Shown: positions 18,138 to 58,902 of the stretch, one piece after another | How positions within the stretch are numbered: the stretch's first letter is position 1 | Layout of the letters: every line of letters begins with the position of its first letter | Assembly (NCBI RefSeq): GCF_003473485.1 | Contig: NC_053046.1 | Location: 37,285,832 to 37,349,831, forward strand | Source: Medicago truncatula | Lineage: Eukaryota > Streptophyta > Magnoliopsida > Fabales > Fabaceae | Direction: 5' to 3' | DNA length: 64,000 bases | Program-made: the position numbers and the translations under genes | The notes under the pieces: generated by a model | What the model saw: only the letters and a program-made list of their open reading frames with translations | Databases searched by the model: none | Told to the model about the DNA's origin: nothing

Positions 18138-18259
18138 TGACCCATGGATTTGTAGATAAGCATCAACTTTTCAACATAAATAGACACTTTACTCTTTTCT
18201 CTATCACTCACCGCTTCATTCTTATCTTCTTTTCTTCATCACCAACAACAAACACAGCT

Positions 18260-28296: not shown

Positions 28297-28299
28297 TTA

Positions 28300-30090: not shown

Positions 30091-30100
30091 ACCAACAACC

Positions 30101-32372
30101 ATGGGAAATGCTTTGAGATTCCTCTATGCCAATTGCTGCAAACCAAAAACATCTGATGATGATCATCCACAATCCACCGTTAGTGTTTCAGCTCTTGCTC
30201 ATGATCTCTTTAACTTTGAAAACACCTCCCAGGTAACCTATTTTGTTCCTTAAAAACTTCTTCAATTTTGTTTTTCATCTTAAATTTACTATAATTCTAC
30301 TCTTTTTACCAACCCCACAATTTTGTAACATTGTATATATGTTTTATTTTTTTATTTTTTAATCTTTTTCAGGTTCCAGAAGGACTAAGCAGACATGTTG
30401 TGTCTTCCAAAAAAGCTCAAGCTAAGTGGTACACTCAATTTCAACACACTGTTCCTTTGTTAAATTGATTACTATTAAAAATAAATTTCAACAGTGTAAA
30501 ACTTTTTTACTTGTTTATCTGATCAAATTACATCATAATGTCAGACTATCATGTCTGCTATTAATGTATCAAAATGTGATCTGATATGTGTACAAGAAAA
30601 TTACACTGACGGTGTATACAAATTGAATCCACCTTGAAGGTATAGAAAGTTAATAGATGGTTGGAAAGAGGCAAGACCACCACCTAAGACACCTGAAGAA
30701 GCAGCTAGACTTGTTATTCTGACATTGAAAGGCCATAAAAAAGAAGATGTTGAGGTTTTCATGTACTTCCAAACTTCAATTCTACTTAATTTGTTTAATA
30801 GTACTGTCACTGTGTGATATTAACAGAAACATATCTCATTACAGATGAATTTTGTGTTTTGTTGTTTGATTTATAGGGATTGTTGACTTTCTATGGTCTT
30901 CCACTGTCACATACTCCAGTTGAAGTACCTGTTCAGCGACCTACATCTTTACCTCATGGAGTACAATATGAAATACACACCTTGCCGGTAAGAATCAAAT
31001 TACTATCTTGTCGAGCACTGTTGCGTAGTGGAATTTGAACTAACAACTATTTTTCGCAAACTGCAATTGATAACACAAATGTAGAGTAGATGACCTATTT
31101 AGTCTCTAAAACTGCATAAATTGAACAATTTCGTTTCTAAGATTCACCAAATTCTAAAATGATTTCTGAAATTTTGAGCTCTTTGATAGCATTAGATCCT
31201 CTACAACAATTTCAGAGATAAAATTGATTGATATAAACGAGTTTGTGATCAATGGTTTTCAATCTCAAGAGTTTTGTTTGCTTCAAAGACCAAATTATCC
31301 TTATATTTCAAATGCTAAAACGGCGATTCCCTCTTGTTAAATTATAAGCATATTATGATGATCTGATGATGAACATGTGGTAGTTGAAATGATTCATTGA
31401 TTTTGCAATTGGACTAGGTTGATGCAAAAGCAGTGGCAGATGGTGATGGTTTAACAGTTTATGTTAGCACAGCAGACCCTAGAGAATCATCACAGGTCCC
31501 TAGCAATGTGCACATTGCAGCCGTGCATAGAGCAGAAGCCCGTTCTAGAAGGAACTATCAAGAGGCAGATGCATTGCACAAACAGATTATTGACGCGGGA
31601 TACCGGTTGGTTTATAGTTTTACTTAATTTTCAATGTATTTGTTTCAAAGTTAAATTCTACATATTTTACTCCAATGTTGTTTTCTTGATTAGGATGATT
31701 TCATTTGAAAACGGGGAAATCCTAGCTAAAAAGTATCGGATCCGACTAAGGTACTCATCAAACAAACACACAAGTATTGATTGATTCTTGCGTACATTTT
31801 AAGTCTTCAGTATTGAACTATTGACGAACTCTAGAATAAAAACAGGGGAATTGATGCGCCAGAAAACGCAATGCCGTACGGAAAAGAAGCTAAAACTGAA
31901 CTGACCAAGATTGTTCAAGGGAAATCTTTGAGAGTCCTTATTTATGGAGAAGATCAGTATCAACGTTTAGTAGGCGATATCTATTGTAATAACATTTTTG
32001 TACAGGTATTCATTTCACACATTTTAAGTTAATTTAACTCTTTACATTTTATGACTGTCAAGTTTTCTCATGTTGATTTCTTTTTATGATAAGGAATTGA
32101 TGCTAAAGAAGGGTTTAGCATGGCATTATGCAGCCTACGACAAACGACCAGAACTAGAAACCGTAAGTGCTAATGATGTGTATGAAAATGCATTTGGGGC
32201 TTTAAAACGCATGAATTGTGTATTTGGTTTAACGGGGAAAACATAATAGGATCCTAACTTTCTTATGTTCTTACACTAGTGGGAGAAAGAAGCCAGAGCG
32301 AAGCGAGTTGGATTATGGGCTTCGAAAAATCCCGAGAAGCCATGGGATTGGAGAAAGGACAGAAGAAACTAA
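30101..32372 (+). CDS. CAN: Ca2+-dependent staphylococcal-type nuclease, copy 2
   Basis: Nine exons (30101-30232, 30373-30428, 30640-30754, 30877-30987, 31418-31605, 31694-31750, 31846-32005, 32094-32162, 32280-32372) join in frame to 326 residues. The N-terminal [13 protein letters not shown] lipid-anchor signal is identical to copy 1. RIRLRGIDAPE and [13 protein letters not shown] keep the catalytic Arg/Glu/Arg pattern. Differences from copy 1 are mostly conservative (e.g. one extra residue in exon 1, one fewer in the proline-rich stretch of exon 4). Exon borders are identical, so it arose by segmental duplication. Both copies look functional; promoters diverge upstream of about 30,050. The same membrane-anchored nuclease role is inferred. 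Confidence 0.92.
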
Positions 32373-33960
32373 TTAACACCGTCTTGAATCACACCAGCAG
32401 ACATGATGTTGAAGTAAATGCAGCATTGATTAACACAAACTGAAATGATGCGGAAGTGATTGCCTGATTGAAAGAAAAAATGCATATGCTTTGTATATAT
32501 TCATTCTTCAATATGTTTAATTATTTGAAAAACCAGTACTTGAAGTTGATATTTTATAGAGCACAAAACAAAATATTGTACCTGCTTGCTGCCCACCGGA
32601 GGCCATAATTAATATTTCTAGCTGTGATCTATCATAGAATAAATGAGGATTAGACGAAATGAAAGCCACATCACAATAACTGCTCTCAAACACGGGATGA
32701 AACCAGACAAAACAAAAATGCAGTGTGTGTGTGTGTGTGTGTGGTGTATTTGGTGCATTAAAAAGAAAATGTTATAAGTTCAAAATCACAAGAATTTTGA
32801 TCATAAAGTTTGTTATTGTTAATACCACATTTTGAAAGGTCTAAACACTCGTCAAACCATTTAAGACTAAACAGTATCATCTGTTTTACAACAGAAGGTA
32901 CTTTCTCTCTTTTCATTCATAATTTTGTGTGACTACACATCCAACATAAAACTAAATTTACTGTTTTTGCTAGTTTCATGATGTTCATCAACCAGGCTAT
33001 ACAACACTGCAAATTTAATGGTTATACAATAAAATATTCCTTTCGATTTGAGTTTTTGTATGAAGTAGTAGTATACTACACAAATACATTCAATGACTAT
33101 GAATCATATATGATTAACAACTCAGTTCACTTATCCTTTATTTTGTATGATTTATCCAAAATACTTAAACAATGAACTTGCAATATGAATTTGACACTAG
33201 TTGTAATTCGTTGAGAAAGACCAAACCCTATTGCGGTGGAATCCTTCCATTATGATAAAACACAAAGCACATGTTATGTGCTTGTTCATAAAAGAAGAGA
33301 GAAGCACATGTTCTGTGCTTTAATGCACATTACATAGCACTAGCAGAACTCAGCATATTTTATATTTTCAGAATCACACTACATCATGAAATCTCGGTAC
33401 ATATTAGTCTCATCAGAATTTATATCAAAAATCAGACTATAGTTGTGGTGTATGCTATATATACGTGCACAAATCATAAAATGATGTATTAACTTTCCAT
33501 AAACCAGGTGAATCAACAAATTCATGCATGTGTCTTTCATACAAACTATGCAGCCTGTTTCTTGGATAGAACCAGAAAAGCTGTGCAAGCAAGAATTCAT
33601 CCAATATAAACAAATTGGAAACAAAACCTGGTTGCATATCCAGTCATAAATTGTACTCACAAGAAGGAACACACACTTAAGAATGTACTGTACAATGCTC
33701 TCTACAATCATTTCAATGGATGTAAAGAAAGCCTCAAACAAGAAAGTACTTTGATTTCAATTACATGCAGCTGATAGTCAGCCAGCTAAAACGTGCCTCC
33801 TCAAATACACGGTCCATATACATGAGTAGGAGCATACCGAATGAGTAAAACCATGAGTTCAGAGGCACAGAACTCAAAATTGAATAGACCATCACATAAA
33901 ATGCCATATATAAATAGCAATTGGCAAGTAGAAAGGATTTCGAGCTTCTATCTTTAGGGA
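32373..33960. other. 3' flank of CAN copy 2, between it and PLAC8
   Basis: Contains a (GT)n tract at about 32,722-32,742, the duplicated flank shared with copy 1 (about 32,940-33,470) and the 3' untranslated side of the PLAC8 gene. No WI12-like (wound-inducible) reading frame was found here, although WI12 is the neighbour in soybean Rhg1. Confidence 0.55.
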
Positions 33961-35645
33961 CTAAGGAGATTCTCTTTGTATCACCGGCGGAGTTGGTGGA
34001 ATCATTGTTACATCTTTATCTTTTTCAGAAAGCTCTTCTTTTACGGAAGATAGTGGACCATCTGGACTATGATATTCCATAAAGAAACTGTTAGAACTTA
34101 GAGGACTTGACGGTTTGAAAGTAGAAGGAGACGAGTTGACACCAAGAGGAGAACTTGTCCCAGATTTGGTTGATGACACACCTTCGCGGCGCAGAGGTGA
34201 AATCGGCGGTTGGTCAACAGTGTTAATTTCTTTGCTGAAGAATTTATCATCTACGATATGATAGGCATCCCCCGTTCGCATTTCTTGAGCAAGAGAGCAC
34301 CAACAACAGAATAGCCAAAGTATGCAATCCGAAACCGCAGGCTTGCCGAAACAGAAGTCATAAGTAGGCAAATTATACCTCTTTCTCATTTGGATCCTCC
34401 AAAAACCACCATAGAGCATACCGAAAAAACATAGAACAATCCCAGCACCTACTAGACATTGCCTAACAGTGTCATCCTCAATATTAACAGCAGCCAAGAT
34501 GAAAATCCAAAGGGGGCCATACAGAAAAGCATAAAAGTGGCAATGTGAACATACATGTTTCCAAAGCCAAGTCTCTCCATATTCCAACCAAATGCACAAA
34601 AAGTACAGAAAAGTGATAAATATGCTTGAGAGATATCGTCCCAAATGTCAAGTATTCCACCACTCCACTTTGGTCTATTTTCGACTGTTCTTAGTTGATT
34701 TTTTGTTGCAAATGAATATTTCCTCTCAAATGATTTCAATCTCATCTGCTCTTTCTTTTGAGCAGCAGCAATTTCAACCTGCGATTCTTCATCTGATCCA
34801 GAATCATAATCTTTACCTAGAGGACTAAGGATTGTATATAGACCAGCAATTGCAGGTGCACCGATCGCAAAAGTTATACATATTCCAACACCAATGGCCG
34901 GGCGCTCAGATCTTTTATAACCTAAGTTTAGACCGCAAAGTGCATACTGAGCGAAACAGTTCACATGACCGAGAATTACCACTACCATTATGTGTTTCCA
35001 TTCATGAGGCTTATAAGTTCCATTCTTGCAGTACTCCTTTCTAAGTTTGGCGATATCTTTTGAATTCCATCGGCACAGAAGTACAAGGTGGTAGAATAAC
35101 TTCGGATGCTTGTACAAACACATCAGTGTAAACAGAGCATTGAGTATTTGATTGTTTACTTCAAACCACGCATTCCTTGCCGACTTCTTTGGAATCACAG
35201 CATTCAACATACCAGTCATGACAAGGAACAGGATTCCACCTGAAACAGCAACACATAAGATCCACGCAAAAAGGGCCATGTTCATTGGATTCCTAATCCA
35301 TTCTATTGTCATCTTCTTCATCGAATCCCAGTCGAGTTTCTTTGAAAACATGTGCTTGAAGCGTTCTCTTAAGCTATGTGAACTCGGAGAAGGCACAGAT
35401 TGTGAAGCCTGGTCCATCTGAGTGGCAAGACGCTTGAATTTGGCAGACGCAGAACCGATTTTGAAGAAGTTGATCCTATTAGGAATAGCACTCAATGTGC
35501 TCGGGAACTTTCTACCAGGATTTTCATCCGTCACCATAGCTCTTCGAGAACTTGAAATATCTATGGAAGTAAACTCATTGGCTTTACTTCCATTATTGTT
35601 ACATTCCTCGATTTCATCTTTACCATTATTATCAGCCGAAACCAT
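33961..35645 (-). CDS. PLAC8/DUF2985 membrane protein, apparent frameshift
   Basis: The start is ATG at 35645 (MVSADNNGKDEIEE); the longer frame to 35672 begins at a non-ATG codon. The N-terminal part (about 375 codons) is intronless and holds a hydrophobic segment MALFAWILCVAVSGGILFLV at about residues 122-141, the DUF2985 region (CRWNSKDIAKLRKEYC), and NCFAQYALCGLNLGY. The C-terminal part (from about 34,508) holds the PLAC8 signature (WLFCCWCSLAQEMRTGDAY) and a Ser/Pro-rich tail ending IQRESP. The two halves are in different frames. The switch is needed at about 34509-34516, in an AAA-GGGGG homopolymer pair inside the conserved FCMAP/WIFILAAVN stretch, and equals one missing base. The intact product would be about 560 aa, normal for the family. 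Its counterpart in soybean is the PLAC8 gene of Rhg1. Role: membrane protein of unknown transport or signalling function. Confidence 0.82.
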
Positions 35646-35715
35646 TCTGTTATGAAGTTTAAGCTTTCTCAATCAAAATCAGAACCTTACAAATCAATAG
35701 TACGGGTACGAACAA

Positions 35716-36527
35716 ATACTGCAAGGACAAAAACGTAACAAGTTGTGCTAAGTATTCAAATCAAAAACAAATTTCATGTCAATCTATAAAGACAAAGAAA
35801 ATATCAGACGACGATGACAACAACAACAACCAAGTCTTATCCCACTAAGTGGGACCGATTACATGGATCAAACGCCACCATAATGTTCTATCATATATCA
35901 TACCCCTACATAACTCATTAATCTCTAGATCCTTCTTGATGGTTTCCCTTATAGCTTTTCTAAGTCTTCCTTTACCTCTAGTGATTCGACTACTCTCCGA
36001 TCTCCCTCTGATATATTATTCTCCTTGCTACAAAATCAACACGTCTTCTCTCTACATGCCCAAATCACCTAAGTCGAGTTTCTACCATTTTTCTACAATA
36101 GGTGTGGTGTTACCCCAACTCTCACTCTCTAATATTGTCATTTTTAATTCCATCATGTTTAGTTTTACAACACATCCAACACAACATCTTCATCTCTGCT
36201 ACGCTTATTTTACTAGCAAAAATGAAAGACTTGTACAAGTTAATGATAACCTAGTTAGTAAATAGATCTTAATAAAACTTTACCAATTAAATTCACAATT
36301 CTCATACTACAAATCATAACATAACTAAAAAATAAAAACCCAATACCCAATTCTAATAATAGCAACATATTCATCTCATAAAACAGCTAAATAAAAGAAA
36401 AACACCCTCGTACAAAACCCTAGTAATCAAATATGCTGATAAGAGAAAGCAAAACAAAAATGACCCAGATGAAAAAAAATAAAAAATTGAAGGCATATGA
36501 AGAAATGGGTTGAATAGAAACGTACCT
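35716..36527 (-). other. Probable 5'-UTR intron of the PLAC8 gene
   Basis: On the minus strand a good donor (CTTAG then GTACGT) lies at about 36527 and a good acceptor (CCTTGCAG) at about 35717-35722, upstream of the ATG at 35645. The leader exon would be the purine-rich stretch at about 36,530-36,770. The intron would enclose the LINE fragment below. Inferred from splice signals only. Confidence 0.45.
35815..36250 (-). mobile_element. RTE-type LINE 3' end fragment
   Basis: On the minus strand it ends CCACTTAGTGGGATAAGACT, then TGG and a (TTG)n tail (35816-35830 on the plus strand). That is the characteristic 3' end of plant RTE LINEs. The preceding sequence matches the end of the reverse-transcriptase frame only loosely and has stops. 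5'-truncated. Confidence 0.7.
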
Positions 36528-37032
36528 AAGAACTGAAGAAGAAGAAGAAGAAAGCGTTGAAACCAAGTAAGAGTTATATTCAAAGCAAAACAGAGAAACA
36601 AGAAATGGAATATGAACAACTGTCAGAAACTATGTAAAACAAAATAATAATCGAATGAAAGGAAACAAAAATGGTTTTACTTGTATTCGCAGATTTTAGC
36701 ATGTGGTCAAAAAGATTTTCTCAGAAGAGCAACAAGAAGAAGAAGAAAAGGAAAATGAGATAAAAAAATAAAAAAATAATTTATATTTCATGAGTGGATG
36801 GAGAATATCTTTCTTTTTTCGGAAAAATAAAGACAACTTTAATAAAGGAAAAAACATTGAAAATTCAAATTTATTTAGAATTTTCTTACTCTAGAAGAAA
36901 AAGCGTAGTTAAATAAAAAATTATTTGGTATTTTTTAAATTAAAAATCTATATAATTAAATCTTGAAATTTTTACAAAAAAATACATTAGTAAAATTTAA
37001 GTTAGAAATGACATGTTTAAATATATGAATTT

Positions 37033-37165
37033 TATCTCCGTGAGCTTAGCTCAGTTGATAGGAATATTGCATATTATATGCAGGGGTCGGGGTTCGAATC
37101 CCGGACACTCCACTTCTCCACAATTTAACTGTGTGAGCTCTAACCACTAGACTACTTGACAAAAA
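37033..37165 (+). mobile_element. Full-length tRNA-derived SINE
   Basis: A box (GAGCTTAGCTCAGTTGATAG), perfect B box (GGGGTTCGAATCCCGG), body, and a short A-tail. A 14-base target duplication AAATATATGAATTT flanks it (37019-37032 and 37166-37179). Confidence 0.9.
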
Positions 37166-37179
37166 AAATATATGAATTT

Positions 37180-38213
37180 AATTTGTATGTTATGTAAGCA
37201 GTTTTTTGTATGTTATGTAAGCTGTCCAATTGATTATGTTTAATTTGCGGCGTCGATGTTTTATTGGATGAAGCTGGCATCATTGACTATTCAAGACTTC
37301 CTTCCTTGAACGGTTTGTAATTTGTACTAGTTGAGCTATTTTCAATTAAAAAATATTCTGACATGACATCATTATCAAGAATAAGTGTTTCTTTTTTTAT
37401 TCTCATTACCTGCTTCACAATACTATTAATCATTACTTAATTAACACTATTAATATAGAAATAAGTGGTTATTTTTTTAAAGAAGAAATATCTAGTTATA
37501 GTTTTGAGATTCATTGTGGTCCGTTGGATATACTATACTAGTAATTGTCCCTTTTCTCACATTATTATTATTATTAAGCGTATTAATTCATGCATCAATT
37601 TGACTTTGTTTTCAATAATCAAATTGAAAACCGCATTGTAAAGCAAAGATTTTTGCTCTGAGTAAGATGAGTTTAACTTAAAAAATTATGATGTTATCTA
37701 TTGGTATGTACATTATTAAGATTTTTGTTCTCTTCGTTTTGCAGTGAATTTTTAGGTAAGGTCAATATTTTGTTTTTAATATTAAAGAGTTTAAATAAGT
37801 TTGATTGCAAGGAGTTAGCACAGACCTCAAAACTTACAAATCATTCACTTAAGAAATCAACTTTTTACTGATTAATTTGACCTCCATTGATAGTAAAATC
37901 AATATTCTACTTTCATATAAAAAAAAAAAAAAAACTAACCTATAATAAAAACTTATGGCAAGAGTGTGACATGTTCTATGATCCATCAATACTAGCAATT
38001 TTTTCATCCTTCCAAACAAGCTACTGTACCAATTAGCAACCTCACAACAAAACTCATCTCAAGTATTCAAGCATACCCCTCCAATCGATTCACAAAGCAA
38101 GTACACTTCAATTCACAGTAGTAATATGTAAGATGAACAACTACATAGACAATCATAACACATGACAAATATAATCAAACATTGAAGTCCAACCGACACA
38201 ATACTCGGACAAT
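37180..38213. other. Intergenic between alpha-SNAP 3' end and PLAC8 promoter
   Basis: No gene or recognisable repeat end. About 37,990-38,210 is probably the alpha-SNAP 3' UTR. Confidence 0.5.
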
Positions 38214-41200
38214 TCAAGTAAGATCATCCTCTTCAAGTTCTTTGGCTTTCAGTTTCTCCTTCACCCTCAGAAAAAGTGTTGTTTTCCAAGAATCCTACAT
38301 AATATTAATGCAAAAATAGAATATGAATTAACTAGATTATAACTATTTATGGAATGCAGAAGAGGAATGGTTGAAACAAGTGAAGTTTTAAGTCAATAAT
38401 TCAATACTCAGTTGAGGATATACATAGAAAAACACCGATAATAATTTTTCTTTGATTTATTTCGCATATAAAACAGTGGAATTTGATTAATTGTCGATGT
38501 CTATAGTATCTTATCCATATTTCACAACCGCTAAAGATGATCTTAAGATAATTTTGAATCGAAGGAAGAAGAATATTTTCTTGGACAATGGAATCATAAC
38601 AATATAGCGTCTGAAAAACATTGTCCTGCTATACCTATCTTTCGTACTAGTCTAGTTAAATTCAAAAGTTCAATAAAACAACTACGTGTGAACGAAAATT
38701 ACGGTGAAATTTGAAGCAGATGCAAAGTGGTAAAAACATATTTTTCAAATTGCTGTAAAATTGAGCAATTTAATTATGATGTTTATTCTAGTATAAGATT
38801 ATGTCTAAAAACAGTGATGTCTTTTCGTAATTTAGAGCTTACCAAAGGAGACATGCTATCAAACTCCTTGACAACTTCAGTAAACTTTCCAACATCTTCT
38901 TCATCAATTGCAGCAGCAACATCCTGACCAATTTTTTTTGAAAAAAAACAAGTTAGCTATTCATTTGGCGAATACCAATCATCACCGTTATAAAGGAGGT
39001 GGCTATTGAAAAAGTATATGTTTTCTAATGTCCTTGTATAATTTACTAAGTTGTGAAAAGTTAATGACGAAATTTCAATATAAGCAATATACCGCCAGAA
39101 GTCTATATTCACGCGTTCCTGAAAATGTTGGATCCAACTCCTGTAAAAACAAATACACATCGAAATAATAATTTAGTAACTGGTGAGTGGTGATATTCCT
39201 AGTCTTTAGACGTAAATTCTTGAAAGATATTAGACCTGATATCGCTCTAATGCATTGGTAATTGCAACAACATCCCCTTTACAAAGTTGGCAAATCCCCG
39301 CATTAAGAAGATGTCCTTTAACTCCATACTTCAACAAATTATTGTTGAGAGACTGGCGAGCTATCTCTTCGTAAATTTCAATCGATTTCTGATATCTAGA
39401 GAATATTAAAAAAAAAAAAAAAAAAAAGATGAAGCAATTAACATTAAATATACCATAAAAGAAGGATATGATAAAGTTCCTTCCAATTCACATTATTCTA
39501 GCTAATTCACAAATGTCATACACATCAACTTATGAGTAAGAACAAACAGCAATAAACTAATGTTGTTTGAAAATTATATAAAATGGAAGTTTCTTTAAGA
39601 TTATATATCAAACTAGTATATTCTTTGACCTTGGCTGATCTCAACATTGGAGGAGGTGGGGGAGAGAAGGTGAAATAAAGGAAAATCGGCTTGTTAGACT
39701 AAAAAACACGGTAAGCAACCAGCATAGAATGAGAGATAACCTTGTTTAACCATTATTATTGAGGCATTCTCGGCAATGAAAAAGATGAAATAAGTAGAAA
39801 ATAGAAATTCATACTGTTCTAACTGAGCAGAATATTGAGCAACTTTTTGCTTGCACTGATTTGCAGATGTTGTCACTTCTTCACTTTCATAAAAATCAGC
39901 TGATTTTTCATAATAAACAAGAGCCCTTTCAATATTTTGTTCAGACTCACACATTTCAGCGATTTCCTGTGCAAACCAAAAGCAAAAGCCAATTAATGGC
40001 ACGTTTACGACGATTCCTATAAGAGTGCCTAAAAAGGATTGTCAAAAAGAAGAATAACATTTACAATTGAATATGAATCTCAATAATTAAAATTTAGATT
40101 ATTGCACAAACAAAAAAAAATACCGAAGTAGTAGTGATATACTGGTATATACCTTCAAATACCTAGCAGCCATAGAAATTCTTCCAATATCACAGAACAT
40201 GTTTACTGCATTATCCAAGCAGGATATAGCTTCTGCATAAAAGAGAGTAAAGGAAGATTAACATTGAAAGTATAGAAAGTTCTACTTTTTTAATCATAAT
40301 GCAAGTTATGCCATGTTAAAAAATGCTTTGTGGCTATATAATGACTTCCAGTTCCACATCAAAAGTTATCGATCTCAACGACATTATGCCCATACAACTT
40401 AAGTTTTTAGGATAATGCTTGTTGATGTGAAGAACCAATTCATAATTTTTGCTTGAATTCTTCAATTGTGAAGGGAGTTTTTACTTGCTATCTCTCTTTC
40501 ATTTTCTCTCACTCCTAGATTTCTGTTTTTCTCTTGTGATACGACCCTTTTCGAGCAAGGATCAAGCTCCAGAAATTTAGAGAGCAATAGATAAAAAAGA
40601 TGATAATACCGATTAATTACTTCTTGATTCATTTCACTATTGCCAACTCTTTATATAGAGGACATGTGTAACAAACTCCGGGAATCAAGGTGATTATATG
40701 AAAGAGGGGAAACTATTTTGTTTCCCCTTCTACAACCTTCTCATTCTAAATATTAACTTCTGCATAATGGGTTGTGCTGCATATTATTTGGAGTCCATAA
40801 GACCATAACTCTCGGAGGAATCCCACGTATCTATATCATCTCACTTCTTATGTATTTGCACGATTCATCTCATACTTAGCACAGCTCTAATTTAGTATCT
40901 GATTACAGTCATATAAAGGTATGAAATGCATCCCTAACTACAACGTGAGGCACCCTCTAACATTAATATATAGGTAACTAAGTTAATAAAGTACTTAGTG
41001 AAAAGTGTTTTCCATAAAATCGCCTATGCATAAGTCATATCCATAATAAAGAGGGAATGTGGTTACACTGTTTCCATATAAGTCGTAAGCTACTTTCATG
41101 AACTGTCCTGAAAAGCTTATTGAATTAAGCTGAACAAAATATAGGCATGTCATAAGTTATTTCATAATTTCTCCCAAACTCTTATGCAACAGTTTATGTC

Positions 41201-42584
41201 GTAAATTCAAATAAGTTGTAAGTAGTTTCTTCTAAACACATCCTGAACATATGAGGAAGCAAATTATCTGATTTTGTGAAAACGGAAAGCTTGAAAAAGA
41301 AGACAGGAAGTTACTTTAATATAATCCAATAATGGACAATGGCATGCGATTTTGAATATTAGAGCTGATACATAGAAGTAAAATACTAACCCTACAAGGA
41401 ATTCTTCCTGCTGCAAGGTGACACTAGCATGATTCATAGCAGTAATCATAATTCATAAACAAGTAGAAGAACATAGCTAGCATGAAAATATTCAATATTC
41501 TGCTAATATATGCAAGAAGAGATTCTATGTACATAGGATATCAATAACACAGTAAGAATTTTAGACATATATCGGCATTGCTTAGCAAATTACTCGGATA
41601 CATACCATTCATATTGGTTTTTTTATAGCAATGTGCAGCATCAACATAAGCTGAGGCAGCTTCATGCTTGCTTTCCAACTTGAATCACAAGACAACAACG
41701 ATCATTTCAGGGTTAAGAGATAATTAGAAACAAAGTAGCTAACTTCAAAGAAAGCTAAACTGAGTCACCTTCACATGGCAATTTGCCAACTTAATGTAGG
41801 TTGATCCCGCTTTATCCCCTGAAATGGCATCACCACCACCAACAACAACAATTTCAGCCTGATTTTACTACACCTAAAATGTTATTAACAACTAGAAAGC
41901 ATGTTTAAAAACCAATACACCATACACTATACGAACACCATAGACTATACATATATGATATAAGATAAATGAATTTGGACCCTTGTTTTAATATTAGTTG
42001 ATATCTAAATCATAATTGATGAGGCAATGACACAATGCGACACGCGGGCAGTTACACGCATATACATGCATCAATTTAATAAAATGGAAGTGTCTTAATG
42101 TGACTACATATATCCGTCGAACATCAAGACGTGTCTGACTTTAGACATGTATTTAATCTGAAGTGTCGGTGCTACATAAATAGATAGTTATATTAAAACA
42201 AAAAATTATGATGTTGTCAAAGAACTTTCATCTATATGGATTGATATAATAATAATTTAAAATAACAAAGTCATGTAACGAAACACAAATAAATATATAC
42301 ATGAATTGTACGACATAAGCATTGTCCTTAACAACCTCATCCAACAAAATGCAGTTTCCATTGCATCACAATTTCACAATTAATTAACCTTATAAATCAT
42401 ATGATCAATCATCAATTAAAAAATAACTGAAAACGTTACATGATTTGGCAAGCTTGTAACAATTGGCAGATTTATCAAATAAATCAGCAGCATCCTCAAA
42501 TTTGGAACCAAACATGCCCCAACCACCCAGCTTTTTTTCTGCCTTATTCTCAAAATCTTCTGCTCTTGCTAATTGATCTCCCAT
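38214..42584 (-). CDS. ASNAP: Alpha-SNAP (soluble NSF attachment protein)
   Basis: Nine exons (42584-42440, 41818-41769, 41678-41606, 40232-40153, 39966-39815, 39395-39236, 39140-39093, 38923-38843, 38294-38214) join in frame to 289 residues, the exact family length. N-terminus [23 protein letters not shown]-like helical repeats throughout (e.g. [34 protein letters not shown]); C-terminus KELEEDDLT. Alpha-SNAP binds SNARE complexes and recruits and stimulates the ATPase NSF to disassemble them, so vesicle traffic can continue. The acidic tail with penultimate Leu is the NSF-stimulating end. The ordinary EEDDLT end is present, not the altered ends of soybean cyst-nematode resistance alleles. 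Divergent from the transporter at 44436 with a 1.85 kb gap. Confidence 0.96.
40980..41250. mobile_element. Decayed MITE in alpha-SNAP intron 3
   Basis: Words such as AAGCTTATTGAATTAAGCTG and ATAAGTCGTAAGCTACTTTC match the element family in NOP53 intron 1 (57771-58406). No clean ends. Confidence 0.45.
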
Positions 42585-43039
42585 GTTATCAACAAAATGG
42601 AATATCGATCAAATTCAATTTTCCTATGCTTTCATGCAAATTGGATTGTTATTTACAGAGATGAAAATAGTTATGCAAATAGAAAGTATTCACCACCAAA
42701 ATCAGAGAACATAAAGAAGAAAAATACAAGAGAATTGTTAATTTCGCTTTACGCAACGTGCTTTCAATGGGCTTGATTTTTTGGGCTTTTGTGGTTATAA
42801 GGCTATTTTAATGGGCTAAGCCCAACAAGCTTGTGAAAAACCTCGAATGTTTCTTTTTAGGCCCCTCCATATCTCTTTAGCTCCCTAAAATTACGAAATT
42901 CCCTTTAATAACATGTATGGTATGTAACAACAGGCATCATCAGGTACTTTCCTTAAAAAAAAAAAAAAAAAAACATCGGGTACTTAATTATTAGATGTTC
43001 ATTTTAAAAATTTCTATTTTGTGCCCTCGGTAGATAACT

Positions 43040-43525
43040 ACCGGGTGTTCATTTTAAAATTTCAATTTTCTACCTCCGATAGATTACTACTGAATGTTCA
43101 TCCGGTAACTCAAACCAATCGAACTACCGATGTCCACATAAGTGAGGGACCAAAATGAATGATACTTTGGTAATTCAAAGGGCTGGTAAAAGCTAAGAAG
43201 CATAATACATTGTTGCTGTACATTCAACTTCTTTGGTCATTATGCATCAATATCAATATGTAATAGATATTTATAATCTTCTCATTTACTGAACCATGGA
43301 CATAAGTTTTCTAGAAGTAAGGTTATCATGGACAAAATACGTCGACTTCTCATATAAGTTTATTAAAAATTGTCGCATTTAAAGAACCCTTTGGGTTACC
43401 AAAATATCAATCATTTTGGCCCCTCACATATGTAGACATCTGTAGCTCGACTGATTTAAGTTACGGGATGAACATCCGAAATACACATACCAATCCTTCA
43501 AATCGGATAGAACCGCGGCTGACCC
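43040..43525. mobile_element. Fold-back element between alpha-SNAP and transporter 1
   Basis: Arms of about 90 bases are inverted copies: 43091-43180 (GATGTTCATCC-like start, ACCAAAATGAATGATACTTT, AATTCAAAGGG) and 43388-43479 (CCCTTTGGGTTACCAAAATA, CAATCATTTTGG, GATGAACATCC). It sits in the shared divergent promoter region. A 19-A run at 42,955-42,973 lies just outside it. Confidence 0.65.
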
Positions 43526-43599
43526 CAATTTTCTTTTATAATTTTTTTTACATCGAGGAAATTACAAAGTTACCCCATTTTAAACAAAAAAAAAAAAAT

Positions 43600-43755
43600 C
43601 AAATTGGCCCATCCATCCTATTCATCTCCTTCCGATTCCCTTAACGCAAAAAGGCTTCTCAGATTCTCAAACACTCTTCTCACTCTCTGTCTCGCTCTCA
43701 CGAACACTTTTCTCTTCTCACTTGTTGTCTTTGTTTTTTCCAATTGGGAGTTAAA
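43600..43755 (+). other. Possible leader exon of transporter 1
   Basis: A CT-rich stretch ending GAGTTAAAG followed by GTAAATATG (donor-like). A matching acceptor TATATATCAG lies at about 44,100. It could be a 5'-UTR exon of the gene starting at 44436; no coding content. Low certainty. Confidence 0.3.
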
Positions 43756-44435
43756 GGTAAATATGTTGAGTACTAAGTTTGATTGTTATTAATTTTCTGT
43801 TATTGTAATCTTGTTTGTTGATTGATGGTAATTGAAATTTAAAACTATAATCCTATTGAATTGGCTTATAATAGAGTTAATTGAATACGATTGATTGATC
43901 TTTGTTCCACTTCTTAGTTTGTATTTTGCCTACCGTAATTGATTGAAAATATGTAATACTACTGATTGTAAGCTGTTGTTACTATATGCATTCACTTTTT
44001 CCTTTTTGTATTTGTTTTCTATACTTGTTTTTTTGGATTAATTAATCTATATTCTTGTTTAAAAAACTTTTTGCTAACATAAATTTTTGTTTATATATCA
44101 GAGTTTAATTTTCTGGTCCACCCAAGATATGTTTTCTGGCTGTGCCACTATGGATTTCAACACGAGACATTTGATTAAACTAGAAGATAGATAAAGACAT
44201 CTAATAATTTTGTCAATGATGAAGCTGTAAAAAAGTAAATAAATATAACTTACCAATAATGATGTAGGAAGAAGCAAAAGATAAAGACACCCACCAAATT
44301 TATCTCCTAAAAGAAAAAGATAGAGACCAACCAACCAGATTATATTGTTTGTCGTTTCAATCGACAAAACCCACAAATCATATCATTTCATCAACCAAAT
44401 CAAAAAACAAAAACATAACAAAACAATTCCCCCTC

Positions 44436-47365
44436 ATGTCTAATTCCACTACAGAATCTATCACCCCTCTTCTACCACAAAACAACAACCACCTTCAAGA
44501 AAACCCAATCCCAGACCCAATTCCACAAAATGGAACAGTTTCTGGAGCAGTATTCAACATATCAACAACCATGGTGGGTGCTGGAATCATGTCCATTCCG
44601 GCAACGATAAAAGTTCTTGGTATAATTCCGGGGCTATTGGTGATCGTGTTGGTGGCAGTTATAACTGATTTAACTGTTGAGTTTATGTTGAGGTGTACAA
44701 GTTCTGGTAAAGCTGTTACGTATGCTGGTATGGTGGGAGAGAGTTTTGGTTCTGTTGGATCTCTTGCTGTTAAGATTTGTGTTATTACCACTAATCTTGG
44801 TGTTCTTATCGTCTATTTCATTATTCTTGGTACGTTTTTCTTCGACTTTAGTCTAAATTAAATTAGCATAAAGTTTGTCATCATTCTTCATTTGTTTATA
44901 TAGTTTTTTCATATAATTGTAAAGTACATGAATATATGTTAGTTTAAGTTTTGCACCTTAATTTTAACTGGTTAGGATTTTCCAATTATATATACTTTGA
45001 GTAAACCACTAAACTACTCTAAACATGGTAGAACATTCTCAAATGGGTTGTTAATTATATTAAACTATTAAATACTTAACTTGATTCTCATATTTAACTA
45101 CTAATCAATTAAGTCCTATATTTTAAGGACACCGGATTCACTGTCATAGGTAGTTCACACAATTTCATGTTGTAATGAATCTCAGCCGTTGATTTGAGAA
45201 CCAATGATTCAGATTTTAAATTTGATGTTACGCAGTAATACGATCCCAGCCACCGATTTAAGAACAAACAGTCCTAATCTTTTACAACGTTCTTCTGTTT
45301 TCAATTCAATAATTTAACCATTTACTATCAATTTAGTACCAATATTTAAGGACGTACTACCAATTTAGCCCATGTCATCAAAAATATTTTTTTTTTTAGG
45401 GGTTCTAGATCATCAATTATATAAGTTATTTATATGCTTGTTGATGTTATAGACAAACATGTGATTATAATGTAAAATATGACAAATGGATTCTTGGCAT
45501 TAGTTGTCAGGATAGGCTGGGCCAATCTATTCTTGTTCAAAAAAAATAATTGGTACAAGTCCATTATTGTACCTGTTATTATAGACTTATTTTAAGTACA
45601 ATATGACATTTTTAAAGTTTGGTAAAACATATATTGGATTAGTTAAAGGTCTATTCTGTATTTATATTTTTAATATAATATTTGGACTGAACCAGTGACT
45701 TTGCTTTAATAGGAGATGTGCTATGTGGAAATGAGTTCAATGGTGACACACATTTAGGTATTCTACAGCAATGGTTTGGTATCCACTGGTGGACATGTCG
45801 TGCTTTTGCTCTTCTTACAGTTGCACTTTTCATAATGCTTCCCCTAGTTATGTTACGCCGTGTAGGTACAGGCATTTAATTAATTTTCCAAGTTATTAAA
45901 CTCTTCATCTTATCTTAATCAAGTAGCATTAATTCAGAGCAATTCTTTTTTTAACAGATTCACTCAAGTATAGTTCTGCTTTATCAATCCTACTAGCATT
46001 GGTTTTTGTTGTAATATGCTCCTCAATGGCATTACATGCATTATGGTCCGGGAAAACTCAGTCTGTGAGAATACTACCCGATTTCTCTCAAGTCACTGCC
46101 CTCGATCTTTTCACCACTGTCCCCATTTTTGTCACAGGGTTTGGATTTCATGTCAATGGTTAGTTTCATGACATCAATATTATCACACTACATGTGCCAT
46201 ATGATTATAGCATAAAAATATACCATTTAACATCAATGTTTAAATATAATTTTAGTCCTATAAACATATCAATTTTTGTTTTTGTCCCTAAAATAATTTC
46301 CTTTAAACTTTTAACTCTACATATTTCCGGTTACCCTCATCGCTTAACTATTGTTACATCTGTTTAACAGAAGAAGAGTGAAAGAATGTGCAGTAAAAAA
46401 TTTCTTTATAATTTTAAACTTACAAATGATTTATTATTGCAGTTCATCCCATTAGAGCAGAGCTTGTAAAACCAACAGACATGAGTATTGCCGTTCGACT
46501 TTCATTGTTAATATGCGTAGCCATTTACTTTGCTATCGGGTTCTTTGGATACCTATTGTTCGGGGAGTCGATCATGCCAGATGTATTGATAAACTTCGAC
46601 CAAAACTCCGATTCAAGCATCGGTCGATTGCTTGACGATGTTGTTCGGCTAAGCTACGCGCTCCATCTTGCACTTGTGTTCCCTATCATGAACTATTCCT
46701 TGAGGGCCAACATAGACGAACTATTATTCTCAAAGAAAAATAAGCCTCCTTTGGCCTTGGATACCCCTAGATTTGTGTCACTCACTCTTGTTTTGCTAGC
46801 ATTCACATATTTGTTAGCTGTGGCCATTCCAAATGTTTGGTACTTTTTTCAGTTTTTGGGATCCACTACCATTCCTTGCCTCTCATTCCTCTTCCCTGCT
46901 GCAATCATTCTAAGGTATTTTATCAATTCGTCACCTCTTTTATATGAATTTGATTAATTGATCTAGAAATATTGAGCAAATGATCGAAATGGTTCTCGAC
47001 TTTGCAAGAATGTGACAAGTCAATCGCTAAGACAAATTAATATTTGAAAGATCGTTAGGTATTGCCGTTTATCATCATTTCAGTCATATAGATTATATTG
47101 AAAAAAAATCTAACTTGTCACACGATTTGCAAAAACGGGGATTCTTAATAATATTTAGTCTTAGTTTTAAACCAAGATAATTTTGATGATTTATTTTATA
47201 AATATTTGATTTCTAACTCTTGTCCTAATATTTTTTGGGCACAGGGATAGGCATGACATATCAAAAACAAAAGATCAAGTAATAGCAATAGTGGTGATCA
47301 TTTTGGCTGTTGGGACAAGTGGAATTGCTATATGGACCAATTTGTATGGTTCTTCTAGTGCTTGA
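44436..47365 (+). CDS. AVT6: AVT6-type amino-acid transporter, copy 1
   Basis: Five exons (44436-44829, 45713-45865, 45958-46158, 46443-46914, 47245-47365) join in frame to 446 residues. The hallmark GTVSGAVFNISTTMVGAGIM (first transmembrane segment of the amino acid/auxin permease AVT/SLC38 group) is near residue 35. LGILQQWFGIHWW in exon 2, VHPIRAELVKPTDM at the exon 3-4 join and GYLLFGESIMPDVLINFD in exon 4 are family blocks. About ten to eleven hydrophobic segments are visible. AVT6 members are proton-coupled exporters of neutral and acidic amino acids on vacuolar or endomembranes in Arabidopsis. The orthologue in soybean Rhg1 is the amino-acid transporter gene of that block. Its paralogue lies 3 kb downstream. 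No frame defect. Confidence 0.93.
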
Positions 47366-49487
47366 CTACAAGGGTTTTGAGGGCATCCTGATTCAGTTCT
47401 CACCAAAAGAGTGATTCTGCTTCTACAAGAGTCCATGATCTGAATAATACTTGTGTATATGAAGTTATGCAAATAGTGTATCACTTGATTTGATGTCCTT
47501 GAATTCTCTTATTCTTTCCATCTATTACAATGTTATATATTACTGGCATTGGTCATTGTTCAGGACCCGTTATGGATCTATAAACTAAATTGAAAAATTA
47601 GATGAAAAGGAATATATAGAAAAAGGAGTTGAAGAATCTTAAAAGAGGATTAAAAGTCAACAATTCACATGAAAATTAGGAACTTACCTTGACAAGCAAG
47701 TAACGCCATAGAATTTGGCTCCTCCTGAGTAACTAAAGTGAGTAGACTAATGATTATTACTTCAAAAAATGTATGATTTGTTATTATATACTTGCGATAT
47801 TTTTCTTTGATTTTAAATAAATCGTTGATAGTACTCTACCTTCTAAAGTGGCGAAATGGATTGTTTCTGCTATGAGATTCTATGTTGTGTTTTTTAGGAG
47901 CCATATACATAACAATAACATTTAATTTCCATGTCTCGAATAGAACTACCTCCAATAGAGAGAACTATCGCAAGTGTACATATCCTTTGTGGAGATTCTC
48001 ATGCTCGCTTGCATCTGAATTGTTATCAAGAATTCGAATCGGAAACATAAATGAACATGTCCTTTGTGGAGAACGAAAGAAGAAATTAAGAACGATATCA
48101 ATTCATATGCACAGATCGAACATATCAAGATCAAAATTAAAAACATCTTTATTAATAGAGAAACTCATGTTAGTATTCACCAAAAAAAAAAACTCATGTT
48201 AGTTAGCAAAGGGAAACAACTTTTCACGTGTTTTTTTTTATTAGGCTCGTATCTAATAGTGAGTGGACTTTGTTTGCAAAGGTACCCACTAAGACAATGT
48301 GTTGCATTGTACACAAGTGTACCTTGTCAACAATCAATTATTGAATGATCAGCATCACACGACGTTCCGTGAATTACGTTGAGAATCTCTCGATGACTAT
48401 GATGTAATTTATTCTAATTCACGTGAAATCTTGGATATGCAGCTACACACCCAGGGCTCAACGTGGGTCCGCCCTTGGTCCAAAACCTACACAATTATTG
48501 CATTTTAAACCTTTTATCCGTTAAAAATAACTAATAAAGGTTCCAAAAAACAGGACACGAATATGAACCCCATGTAGCGAGGTTTCACCTAAGTAAACAA
48601 TCATCGGCCATCTGACGTCTTCTTTCAAATTTAATTCTTATTACATATTTAAATTAACTAAATATTTCTTCTAAACAATATTTTGGAAATATCTCACAGA
48701 AATGGCACAGCAAAAATCGTGATGGATTACATCATGATTTTGATATTGTATTATAAATCAAAACAAAAGTAACAAAAAAAATAAAATAGAATATGTAGGA
48801 ACTCAAGCATTGAAATGGTAGTAAAACAATCAAGATAATACAAGTACAACGAGACTTTTATAGCAAATGATAATAACTATACCTTTCGGTCACTATTTTA
48901 AACAAAAATTAATATTTTAGATTCATTCATTATATATGTAATCTATAATAAAGACCATATACATCATTTTATTTTTGGTTCATAGTAATTAAATTCAAAT
49001 ATTTAATTATTATTTTTTTGGCAGTGAATGTTTAATTATTTTAGGCATACATTCAATGATGTGTTGTTACATCATTTAATAAATATGAGTTATCACATTC
49101 ATTAATTAATATGACAATATATCATTGAATTCTTGTGTAAAATAACTTTACAGTTCTAGAAATTAAACTCATATTTGTCTATACACATTTATTAATTAAA
49201 AAATAATTACTATTCATTAAAAGAACGATTCAATTTAATTAAAAGGCATTATTGAAATGGATGAACATTTTATCTTGTTGGTTTGAATAATATTTATTTT
49301 CCTAAAGATGTGATGCTTTAAAGTATAGTGAAGACTCAATTTGGTCTTTTAAATTTATAGCTGCCAAATTTGATATTTAACAAAAAATAATAGTACTCAA
49401 ATTAGTCCATACCTTTTCCATCTACTATAATTAGTTTTTTTTAAGGACATCTACTATAATTAGTTAAAGACTAATTTGTTAAAGACA
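47366..49487. other. Intergenic between the two transporters
   Basis: 3' UTR of copy 1, then AT-rich DNA. 48,470-48,620 has a slightly GC-richer decayed repeat. Around 48,890-48,990 is a decayed copy of the palindromic element seen at 49649-49796. No exon is credible. Confidence 0.5.
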
Positions 49488-49627
49488 AATTTTTTTTTGG
49501 TAGATAGACGAAATGACAAAATTATTATAAACTCACACACACAAGTGGAGGTACCGGGGTTCGAACCCCGGTCATAGCATTCGGCCTAACAATTTCGGCA
49601 TTTTGCTAGTTGAGCTAGGACTTCTGG
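49488..49627 (-). mobile_element. tRNA-derived SINE
   Basis: On the minus strand: A-box region (CCTAGCTCAACTAGCAAAAT), perfect B box GGGGTTCGAACCCCGG, tail. The plus-strand T-run at 49488-49498 is the A-tail. Flanks share TTAAAGACTAATTT-like sequence (with one difference), the probable target duplication. Confidence 0.8.
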
Positions 49628-49648
49628 ATCAATTAAAGACTAATTTAA

Positions 49649-49796
49649 TACTCACTCCGTTGTTGATTATAAACAAATTTAACTTTTTAGATTCATTCAA
49701 TTAATGATGTATGTAGTCCATAATTTAAATCACATACATCATTAATTGAATGAACCTAAAGAGTCAAATTACTTATAATTGGTAACAGAGGGAGTA
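49649..49796. mobile_element. Stowaway-like MITE (Tc1/mariner)
   Basis: About 148 bases, nearly palindromic. It starts TACTCACTCCGTTG and (reverse) TACTCCCTCTGTTACC and has TA at both borders. The centre arms contain ATTCATTCAATTAATGATG and its inverse. No coding capacity. It lies in the promoter region of transporter copy 2. Confidence 0.8.
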
Positions 49797-50390
49797 TTTT
49801 TTTTCCATTTAATAAGTTGAGCCGCAAGAAAATTACAAAGATGAAATTTATTCTTCACTTTTAAAAATATAATGAAAGACATTTTAAAAGAAAAAACATT
49901 AATATAGTTTTCAAATTTATAGCAATTGGTCAAAACATGATAAATATAGTTTGCTAAGAATATATATATCTACTATCAAGAGAATGACATACCACAAATG
50001 AGAGAAAGGCAACAACATTAGATGACTCATCCCTAGAACCCACTTTTCCATCCACATACATTGAGATTTGAGTGTGTTCCAAATCGTCACATTTTCACTT
50101 TTTGTCTTCATGCATCCAATCCAACCTGTCACAAAATCACACCATTTTTTTCATAACAACAAAATCACCTGTCACAAACCGCACTTGAATTTACAAAACA
50201 ACCCTCAACAATTCTTCCCTCGCACACCCTCACACTCCTATTCATCAATGGCATTATTGTCTTTCAACAACTCCAATAACTCAAAACAAAAGTCTTATAA
50301 AACCCAACCTTCGCACGTTGTTGTAAAAAACAACAAAAAACTACAAAACTTTCTCAAACTTTTTCCTCCATTTTTGCCGCGATATCTCCG

Positions 50391-52858
50391 ATGACCGGAG
50401 CAAATACACCTCTCTTATCAAGTTCCAAGGTTTCTACCGAGCCGGCAACTGTCTCCGGTGCGGTGTTTAATGTCGCCACGAGCATAATTGGCGCTGGAAT
50501 TATGTCACTTCCAGCAACTCTAAAGGTTCTTGGTGTGATTCCAGGGTTTGTTTTGATTCTGGTGATTGCTTTATTGGCTGAAATATCGGTGGAGTTTTTG
50601 ATGAGGTTTACAAATTCCGGTGAAACGACGACGTATTCTGGTGTTATGAGAGAAGCTTTTGGACCCTTAGGAGCTGTGGCAACTCAACTTAGCGTTGTGA
50701 TTACTAATCTTGGGTGTTTAATTATGTACTTGATTATTATTGGTAAGTAAGAATCAATATTATAATGAGTTTATATCAGCACTTTAATCATTAAAACTAA
50801 GTGCAATAAAAAACATGAAAAAAAAAGTCTAAAATTCAGATTTTGAGTTTGATGAATGAAATCTGCAAAGTAAAATAAAGTACTTAAAATCTGAGTTCTT
50901 TAATTATCGGTCAAGATCTATAACTGCGTGTTTACACAAATTTCATGGATGCACAGAATTTGATACTCAGTTAGTGATATTGATGGTCCCATCTAGATTA
51001 CAGGTCACTATTAAGTAAAAATTGACATTTTAAATTCATTCAATAAATGATGTATGTGGTCTTAAACATAGACCATGTACATCATTTATTGAATGAACTT
51101 ATAAATGTGCATATAATTTTGGCTAAATGTGTGATAAGTTTGTTTTTTATTTTTTGCTATGTACCAAAAGTTCTGAATCTACGTGTTATTTGATGTACTT
51201 TACAGCGGATGTACTTTCTGGAAATCAACCTGAAGGAGAAGTACATTTGGGTATTTTGCAACAATGGTTTGGAATTCATTGGTGGAATTCACGTGAATTT
51301 GCTTTGCTCATTACCTTAATCTTCATTTTGCTTCCATTGGTATTGTACCGTCGTGTAGGTTAGTACCAAGAACTTAATTATTATATGAGCTTAAATTTGA
51401 TCTTATTTAGGGTCATTAAAAATGTTACACTCTTTTACTATGGTTACAATACTAAAATTTGATGTTATTTATTGTTTATTACAGAGTCATTGAAATTTAG
51501 TTCTGCAGTATCAACTCTTCTAGCTGTGGCATTTGTTACAACATGTTCTGTCTTGGCAATTGTTGCACTTGTGGAAGGAAAAACACAATCACCAAGATTG
51601 GTTCCTCGTTTGGACCATCAAACATCTTTCTTTGATCTTTTCACTGCAGTTCCTGTCATAGTCACTGCCTACACATTTCATTTTAATGGTAATTTTGATT
51701 AGTTAATTAGCATTAGTGATTTAGGGATGAAAATTAGACAGGGGCGAGGGGTGAGTAGTAATCTCTCAGTGTCCGCCTTGTCCGATTTGTATCCCTAAAT
51801 TAGATTTGATGAATAGTTGATAAAAATTTGTGGATTAGGAATATTACGCATTCACGCGGTTAGTACATTGGTGACCATTAGATCAAGATTGGATGATCCA
51901 TATTGAAAGCTTGATATTTAATATTTTTTTTAAAAACTAAATTCTAAATTTAAATTGGTCCGTCACCGATGTACAGATACATAAATGTGTGGGATCCTGA
52001 CCGAACAAATTCAAATTTGTTAATTTTACTCTAGTACCTATGGAATTAGAAATTTTGAATTTTGATTGCAACTTCTTTGAAAGCAACCTTGATTAGAATT
52101 TATAATTCAGAAGATTAATTTGTTTTCGAATAATTGATTCTACATGCAGTACATCCAATTGGGTTTGAACTTGGAAAACCATCAGATATGAAAAAAGCAG
52201 TGAGAATAGCATTAATCCTATGTGCACTCATATACTTTTCAATAGGCCTATTTGGTTACCTATTATTTGGTGATGCAACTCAATCAGACATTCTAATAAA
52301 TTTTGACCACAATGCTGATTCTTCATTTGGTTCATTGCTCAATACTTTGGTCCGTTTAAGCTATGCTTTTCATGTTATGCTAGCATTTCCTCTTCTCAAT
52401 TTCTCTTTGAGAACCAATATTGATGAATTCTTCTTCCCTAAAAAACCTTTGTTAGCCACAGATAACAAGAGATTTGTGTTCCTCACTTTGGTGCTGTTGG
52501 TTTTTAGTTACATTGCTGCTGTTGCAATTCCAGATATTTGGTTCATTTTTCAGTTTATGGGATCAACTTCTGCAGTTTGTCTTGCATTTGTGTTTCCTGG
52601 TTCTATTGTTCTAAGGTAATTAATCTTGTTCTATTCTTTTTACTATTAATCTTACAACACTTATAAACATGTCTGTGCTTATACTCATAATTAAACCATT
52701 AATCATGCTTGTCTAATTTTTTTTTGTTGTCCAAAAATAACAGGGATATTCATGGTATATCAACAAGAAAAGACAAGATTATAGCACTGGCTATGGTTAT
52801 ACTAGCTCTAGTAACAAGTGTGATTGCTATCTCCAACAACATATATAAGCTGTTTTAG
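50391..52858 (+). CDS. AVT6: AVT6-type amino-acid transporter, copy 2
   Basis: Five exons (50391-50742, 51206-51358, 51485-51688, 52150-52615, 52744-52858) join in frame to 429 residues. The same blocks as copy 1 appear: TVSGAVFNVATSIIGAGIMS near residue 20, LGILQQWFGIHWW, VHPIGFELGKPSDM and GYLLFGDATQSDILINFD. Intron positions are identical to copy 1. Differences are spread over the protein, so this tandem pair is much older than the CAN pair. A TATA-like TTATAAAA lies at 50294. An upstream frame (ATG at 50248) ends with a TGA overlapping the start (ATGA), but it would be excluded from the transcript if that TATA is used. Proton-coupled amino-acid export is inferred. Confidence 0.93.
51031..51100. 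mobile_element. Palindromic MITE core in transporter 2, intron 1
   Basis: Inverted arms AAATTCATTCAATAAATGAT and ATCATTTATTGAATGAACTT surround a short loop. The same core as the element at 49649-49796, without recognisable CTCCGT ends. Confidence 0.65.
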
Positions 52859-58200: not shown

Positions 58201-58902
58201 ACAAACACTTCAAAAATGACAAGTGTTTTTTTAATTAAAAAAAAAAAGAGAGAGCTTTATCTAGAAAAATGTTAAGCAAACGCACCCTAAAACTAGAACA
58301 ACTTATGATGAACATGTCGTAAGTTGTTTTCATAAATTCTCCCAATCAATCTCACAGGTACTTATAGTCGTAGATAAGCTCGAATGATCCAATCCAAATA
58401 GGCCCTATGTGCAAGTCATTTCTATAACAAAGGTTAAAATAAAGTCAAACTACTTTTCTATCAGTTAAGTTGATCTCATAAGCTATCATTGATAGCTTCG
58501 AGAAATAAGCTGAAAACAGCTTGTGTACATATCATATGTTATTTTTATAAGCTCTAAGACAGTCTCATAAGGGTAAAATGTCATAGGACAAGCTCAAATA
58601 ATTCAATCCAAACAACCCTAAATCTAAAAACCCTTTTCATATACAAGCTGACGTAATTCATAATTAAAAACATCATTTTCATATAATCTAAAAATAATTA
58701 ATCAAAATTAAATAAATAAAAATGGGTACGTACCTTTTGATTTGTCTTCGAAAAAGAGAGAATCACTTGAAACAGCTTGAAGAGAACCACCAGAAAGAGC
58801 ATCCTTTGTTGATTTCTCAAAGAAATCTTCGATTTCTTCTGTGCTTATGTTAGCTCTCCATGCTTTCTTCCCCTTCCTTGAACTTTTCGATTTCTTCCCC
58901 AT
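55205..58902 (-). CDS. SMO4: NOP53 / SMO4 ribosome-biogenesis protein
   Basis: Twelve exons (58902-58734, 57554-57382, 57283-57235, 57146-57115, 56999-56919, 56820-56707, 56562-56474, 56166-56047, 55956-55834, 55693-55627, 55510-55431, 55208-55205) join in frame to 366 residues. Start MGKKSKSSRKGKKAWRANIS; then DLAVKKKIEKHREKVLHVDS; VDPPGCSFNPTHESHQDT; NELGPEPVPLTVPAGEAISE; an acidic stretch (DDDESNHEDDGENEDD); a basic coiled region; PPRLGKHKF near the C-terminus; end PRRNR. These are the conserved blocks of NOP53 (human GLTSCR2/PICT1), a nucleolar factor for 60S subunit maturation that recruits the exosome helicase Mtr4. The Arabidopsis homologue is SMALL ORGAN 4. The last exon carries only one coding base before the stop. 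Intron 1 (1.2 kb) is filled with MITEs. Confidence 0.92.
57771..58406. mobile_element. Nested MITEs in NOP53 intron 1
   Basis: Outer element: ends ATAGGGCTGCTACC and (reverse) ATAGGGCCTATTTGG, with AAGCTTAT/ATAAGC-rich arms. Inner element 57966-58288: ends AGGGTGTGTTTGTTTTAGCT and (reverse) AGGGTGCGTTTGCTTAAC. A further truncated relative of the outer family follows at about 58,430-58,620. Target duplications were not resolved. Confidence 0.6.

Follow-up and report, generated by a model that had tools for sequence, protein, structure and literature searches.

The window analyzed here, a stretch of 64,000 nucleotides of Medicago truncatula (C5:37285832-37349831), harbors at 33961-52858 a cluster of four adjoining genes that resembles the soybean Rhg1 block: a DUF2985/PLAC8 gene and an alpha-SNAP gene on the minus strand, followed in that order by two amino-acid transporter genes, AVT1 and AVT2, on the plus strand. 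A preliminary description had placed a PLAC8/DUF2985 protein, alpha-SNAP and an AVT-type transporter side by side, and domain matches and gene models have confirmed both order and coordinates. The soybean locus (chr18, Glyma.18G022400-022700) contains an amino-acid transporter (AAT), an alpha-SNAP that is likewise 289 amino acids long and a gene in the PLAC8 slot in matching order, which bears out the proposed homology. The window differs from Rhg1 in lacking WI12 and tandem copies of the block, in the EEDDLT end of its alpha-SNAP, in having a second transporter and in the broken frame of its PLAC8 gene. The cluster exists as described and duplicates an arrangement that is already known. With considerable confidence, we regard the window as one of two homoeologous Rhg1-type copies derived from an old legume whole-genome duplication, the other lying on C3; the window likely goes with soybean chr02/14 and bean Pv08, and C3 with soybean chr18/11, where Rhg1 resides, and with Pv01.

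The second copy emerged from whole-genome searches covering 429.9 Mb in 42 contigs, in which window SNAP-exon DNA and WI12 each pointed near C3:35.86 Mb. All four Rhg1 gene types are found at C3:35.85-35.89 Mb in Rhg1 order, namely WI12, PLAC8 twice, alpha-SNAP and transporter. Within C3:35.80-35.94 Mb, the minus strand carries an HMA-like gene, WI12, both PLAC8 copies and alpha-SNAP, after which the plus strand carries a transporter first-exon fragment and then an apparently whole transporter, whose ends are not fixed. PLAC8, SNAP and transporter keep the order and strands of the window, and an HMA-like gene flanks both blocks (79.8% over 104 bases and 76.7% over 116 bases between exons by blastn). 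In contrast to the window, the C3 block has WI12, a recent PLAC8 tandem duplication (Ks 0.09) and one transporter plus the first-exon fragment, and the nuclease gene pair of the window finds no match within C3:35.80-35.94 Mb. The DUF2985 profile matches three places genome-wide, one in the window and two on C3, and every one of them adjoins an alpha-SNAP and a transporter of the same subfamily; this restriction to two loci indicates that the adjacency is not due to chance. Together with the AVT2-exon matches, the DUF2985 places make the window and C3 the only two such blocks found in the genome. C7 was considered as a third block and rejected, since neither DUF2985 nor the AVT2 exon has a match there. 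A diverged SNAP does lie at C7:33465766, and the closest of five WI12 copies, which are spread over about 103 kb (C7:33.34-33.47 Mb), is 22 kb away from it, reflecting either an old SNAP–WI12 linkage or coincidence. Open frames between the C3 PLAC8 copies (C3:35858223-35871491) look copia-like by eye.

The divergence of the two copies was estimated by the NG86 method as nonsynonymous (Ka) and synonymous (Ks) substitution between C5 and C3. The alpha-SNAP genes share 86.2% of their amino acids (Ka 0.07, Ks 0.98), and AVT2 shares 73.2% with the C3 transporter (Ka 0.161, Ks 0.945). The PLAC8 gene was compared with C3 copy a in two parts, N-terminal (74.0%, Ka 0.166, Ks 1.056) and C-terminal (64.3%, Ka 0.226, Ks 0.792), and copy b gives similar values. 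A collinear second copy with Ks between 0.79 and 1.06 for all three shared genes is as expected of one old duplication, and like Ks across several collinear genes is what marks sister segments of a whole-genome duplication. The Ka values tabulated for soybean chr18/chr02 are close to these (0.07, 0.16 and 0.14; PMC5364553 Table 1). Median Ks values obtained by other methods are 0.79 for one Medicago duplicate pair and 0.61 for soybean–Medicago orthologs in block 1b (PMC1201151).

Table 1. Genes of the cluster and its flanks, in window positions
Feature	Position	Strand	Basis and remarks
HMA-like gene, two exons	21536..21989	-	Left neighbor, common to C3; named by eye from translation
SNase-domain nuclease gene, copy 1	25034..28483	+	PF00565, E 2.1e-11 at 27758-28009
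SNase-domain nuclease gene, copy 2	30031..32561	+	PF00565, E 3.6e-11 at 31838-32032
DUF2985/PLAC8 gene, two overlapping frames	33961..35672	-	PF11204, PF04749
alpha-SNAP, 9 exons, 289 aa, ends KELEEDDLT	38214..42584	-	Spliced model
AVT1 amino-acid transporter, 5 exons	about 44436-47365	+	PF01490, model; start and stop read from sequence
AVT2 amino-acid transporter, 5 exons, 429 aa	50391..52858	+	PF01490; model, stop TAG
Nop53-like gene, exons only, ends not fixed	57358..58905	-	Right neighbor; PF07767

The alpha-SNAP model is complete, with exons from 42584 to 38217 and a TGA stop, and its best match among solved alpha-SNAPs has an E value of 3e-71 (phmmer). Its C-terminus, KELEEDDLT, is the same in the C3 copy. 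Soybean wild-type alpha-SNAP also ends in EEDDLT. The C-terminal region of soybean alpha-SNAP recruits NSF and is the part altered in resistance alleles; the rhg1-a reverse primer, translated by hand, ends in LEEYEVIT, unlike the EEDDLT of window and C3 (PMC6712407). Compared with this rhg1-a tail, no resistance-type C-terminus was found in the window or in the C3 copy. An atypical end of the C3 protein was considered and rejected, because the first model missed the correct last exon and a wider search gave the EEDDLT exon at C3:35873379-35873302. Elsewhere, part of the window alpha-SNAP gene, introns included, is copied on C6 at some 19-20 kb from the start of the contig (80% over 1375 bases), and C8 has two weak SNAP-profile matches. 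In the window, there is one alpha-SNAP gene and no repeat of at least 40 bases within 30000-56000 at the settings used, so that the block is not amplified, as the preliminary description had stated. It was also right that WI12 (PF07107) is missing from the window: of its eight places genome-wide, the nearest on the same contig is 4.3 Mb off, at C5:32948000.

The PLAC8 gene is split between the frames 34452-35672, which matches PF11204 (E 9.7e-29) and PF04749 below its cut-off, and 33961-34647, which matches PF04749 above it. At one place it is a single base shorter than C3 copy a, hence the two overlapping frames. Both C3 copies stay in one frame across this point, and beyond it the second frame of the window remains open for 182 codons, which suggests that the frame shifted very recently or that the assembly is in error; the window copy may be decaying.

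PF01490 (Aa_trans) was matched on all three AVT1 and AVT2 exons scanned. A search with an AVT2 exon gave 15 places: AVT2 itself (100%), the C3 gene (76%), AVT1 (61%) and 12 others at no more than 49%. Ks is 1.78 between AVT1 and AVT2, above the 0.945 between the AVT2 and C3 genes, and 2.47, near saturation, between AVT1 and the C3 gene. A tree built from 12 exon fragments, which carries a long-branch warning with AVT1 among those flagged, groups AVT2 with the C3 gene (86/86), places AVT1 outside and keeps the trio together (99/98). The two transporter genes therefore seem, with moderate support, to have diverged before the duplication that separated the C3 and C5 blocks. The earlier statement that only the transporter is duplicated has to be qualified, as the pair appears to predate the C3/C5 split and the nuclease gene next to the cluster is also in tandem.

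Which copy corresponds to Rhg1 is inferred from the neighbor pattern, as observed against the published soybean genes. Table 1 of PMC5364553 gives chr11 partners for 23 chr18 genes, chr02 partners for 12 and chr14 partners for 7 (hand count). From BTB to carboxylase, seven chr18 genes have no chr02/14 partner in it: BTB, ARM, WI12 (entered as SnoaL-like, 022700), 022800, Na/H exchanger, Tiki and carboxylase. Four of these families, BTB, WI12, Na/H exchanger and Tiki, were tested; all four are present on C3, and the whole-genome searches placed none of them beside the window. The Tiki profile matches C3 only, the next matches of the C3 BTB gene reach 30-39%, and those of the C3 Na/H exchanger at most 36%, none of them falling within C5:37.2-37.4 Mb. 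The searches also took in six genes for which chr02 has a partner. Four of them, AAT, SNAP, PLAC8 and HMA, occur on C3 as well as on C5; RLK was located to C5 and C4 and not near C3, and the arogenate-dehydrogenase profile is at neither locus. Like the window, soybean chr02 keeps AAT, SNAP, the PLAC8 slot and HMA, and chr02/14 have no listed partner for WI12, Tiki, Na/H exchanger or BTB; unlike the window, chr14 lacks listed partners for AAT and PLAC8 (PMC5364553). A single set of shared losses suffices if C3 is paired with chr18/11 and the window is paired with chr02/14, whereas the reverse pairing needs four losses twice. Therefore, C3 is most likely the counterpart of chr18/11 and the window that of chr02/14 (GmSNAP02/14), and the ancestor most likely had WI12, which the window copy then lost. 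The preliminary description, which took the window for the Rhg1 ortholog in an ancestral form lacking WI12, is most likely wrong on this point, as C3 has all four gene types and the losses pair the window with chr02/14.

Comparison with bean mostly points the same way. The best matches of the Rhg1 transporter (91%), SNAP (94%) and WI12 (88%) are on Pv01 (PMC6312554), which has one transporter (PMC6312554, PMC6366866). The rhg1-like cluster of Pv08, which lies within a bean nematode-resistance association, resembles the window in having a pair of amino-acid transporters together with SNAP and a third gene, which is gamma-bisabolene-synthase-related and has been tied to Glyma18g02610 (PMC6366866). 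Glyma18g02610 is WI12, and Table 1 of PMC5364553 puts the gamma-bisabolene-synthase-related label on 18G022600, the PLAC8 position; we infer that the third Pv08 gene occupies the PLAC8 slot.

Several observations weigh against assigning C3 to Rhg1 and the window to chr02/14. The conflict between the two papers over the label of the third Pv08 gene makes the bean support weaker than it appears. The tested set covered four of the seven genes, the C3 matches are at the level of gene family rather than of soybean orthologs, notably for BTB and Na/H exchanger, and the C5 flanks were covered by searches. Arogenate dehydrogenase (PF02153), kept on chr18, 02 and 14, is at neither locus and matches only C4:56065524. 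Five pieces of GmSNAP18 primers, which were designed on rhg1-a alleles (PMC6712407), fit the window in 89 and C3 in 84 of 105 bases; a nested primer left out of this sum fits them in 19 and 18 of 20. An RLK probe of uncertain origin fits C5:37222247-37223183, about 97 kb from the window PLAC8 gene, at 90-92% and C4:4169985-4171474 at 79-85%. Of 2160 candidates, 140 were scored, and none of these is a close match on C3, although chr18 keeps this RLK; the better fit on C5 is unexpected if the probe is the chr18 protein.

The leaning of the printed primer pieces toward the window and the position of the rhg1-type RLK on C5 and not on C3 are what favors the reverse assignment, in which the window is the actual ortholog of Rhg1 and C3 the sister that goes with chr02/14, with C5 and chr02/14 each having lost WI12, BTB, Na/H exchanger and Tiki. 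We consider this improbable, as each of the four tested losses is needed twice, and a GmSNAP18 protein sequence is closer to C3 (258 of 289 residues) than to the window (249 of 289). Neither the primer nor the protein fits decide the matter, since the chr02/14 sequences were outside the comparison, nor does the position of RLK separate the two assignments, since soybean keeps it on chr18, 11, 02 and 14 (PMC5364553). In addition, Mudge 2005 described chr3 (and chr4) segments as orthologous to the soybean rhg1 region, with chr3 supported by 16 of 16 phylogenies in block 1b, and left open whether an rhg1-RLK homolog on chr5 was translocated or lies in a paralogous region (PMC1201151); an RLK near the sister block favors the second option, if that bacterial artificial chromosome is the C5 place.

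It is much less probable that the C3 and C5 blocks arose through a segmental duplication of their own within the Medicago lineage, with both standing equally close to Rhg1. That the genome has only two such blocks would agree with this; however, their Ks of 0.79-1.06 exceeds the ortholog median of 0.61 in block 1b, with the methods differing (PMC1201151), and soybean shows the same two-way split (PMC5364553). The idea that common gene families came together here by chance, with no relation to Rhg1, can be dismissed, as it is refuted by the collinear copy, by the same order and strands on C3, in soybean and in bean, and by the confinement of DUF2985 to two loci.

Around the cluster, the HMA-like gene gave no Pfam match in the one exon scanned. 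The SNase-domain nuclease genes (25034-32561), which we take to be of the CAN type, form a tandem pair, copy 2 matching copy 1 at 90.8% over 1550 bases. To the right, the Nop53-like gene matches PF07767 at 58711-58905 (E 1.7e-12) and, below the cut-off, at 57358-57597 (E 0.005), and a ribosomal L13 gene is also present. Farther left lie a head-to-tail duplication of about 1.48 kb (7712-10645, 99.4% identical) with a 119-aa open frame per copy and, on the minus strand, a pair of related open frames (125 aa at 3062-3439 and 128 aa at 5516-5902), all without a Pfam match. An open frame with a PAM2 motif (18134-18550) resembles ERD15-type proteins, and a tRNA gene lies at 20035-20118 (Rfam, 59.2 bits).

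Regarding function, the window genes most likely have ordinary roles in vesicle fusion and amino-acid transport, to judge by their relatives. The window alpha-SNAP would recruit NSF for SNARE recycling via its unaltered C-terminus. The transporters, which match PF01490, may be AVT6-like, given the 58.7% reported between the soybean Rhg1 transporter and AtAVT6C (PMC6637870), and as such they would move amino acids across endomembranes. With neither amplification nor an altered C-terminus, the window locus is not expected, from its sequence, to act by the Rhg1 resistance mechanism.

An old legume whole-genome duplication would thus have left two homoeologous Rhg1-type neighborhoods in Medicago, and among the matches listed, no title or abstract opening gave a published account of a Medicago alpha-SNAP cluster. 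It is tempting, if rather unlikely, that transporter, alpha-SNAP and PLAC8 have been kept together on both duplicates in soybean and Medicago because linkage itself matters, and that the chr5 rhg1-RLK homolog marks a sister segment and not a translocation; were the linkage reading true, the two copies in Medicago would lend themselves, as a pair, to tests of which parts of Rhg1 are ancient. The value of the window cluster lies in its pairing with C3, which indicates that the four-gene linkage predates the soybean–Medicago split and that the loss of WI12 belongs to one duplicate. The window had been put forward as a natural outgroup to Rhg1, and it is of use as such, but the choice of outgroup in Medicago changes: C3, with WI12, is the one to use for the four-gene block, and comparisons on the GmSNAP02/14 side call for the window. 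As null alleles of GmSNAP02 confer nematode resistance, loss of function there being a published resistance mechanism (PMC10665432), the window alpha-SNAP is a relevant comparator.

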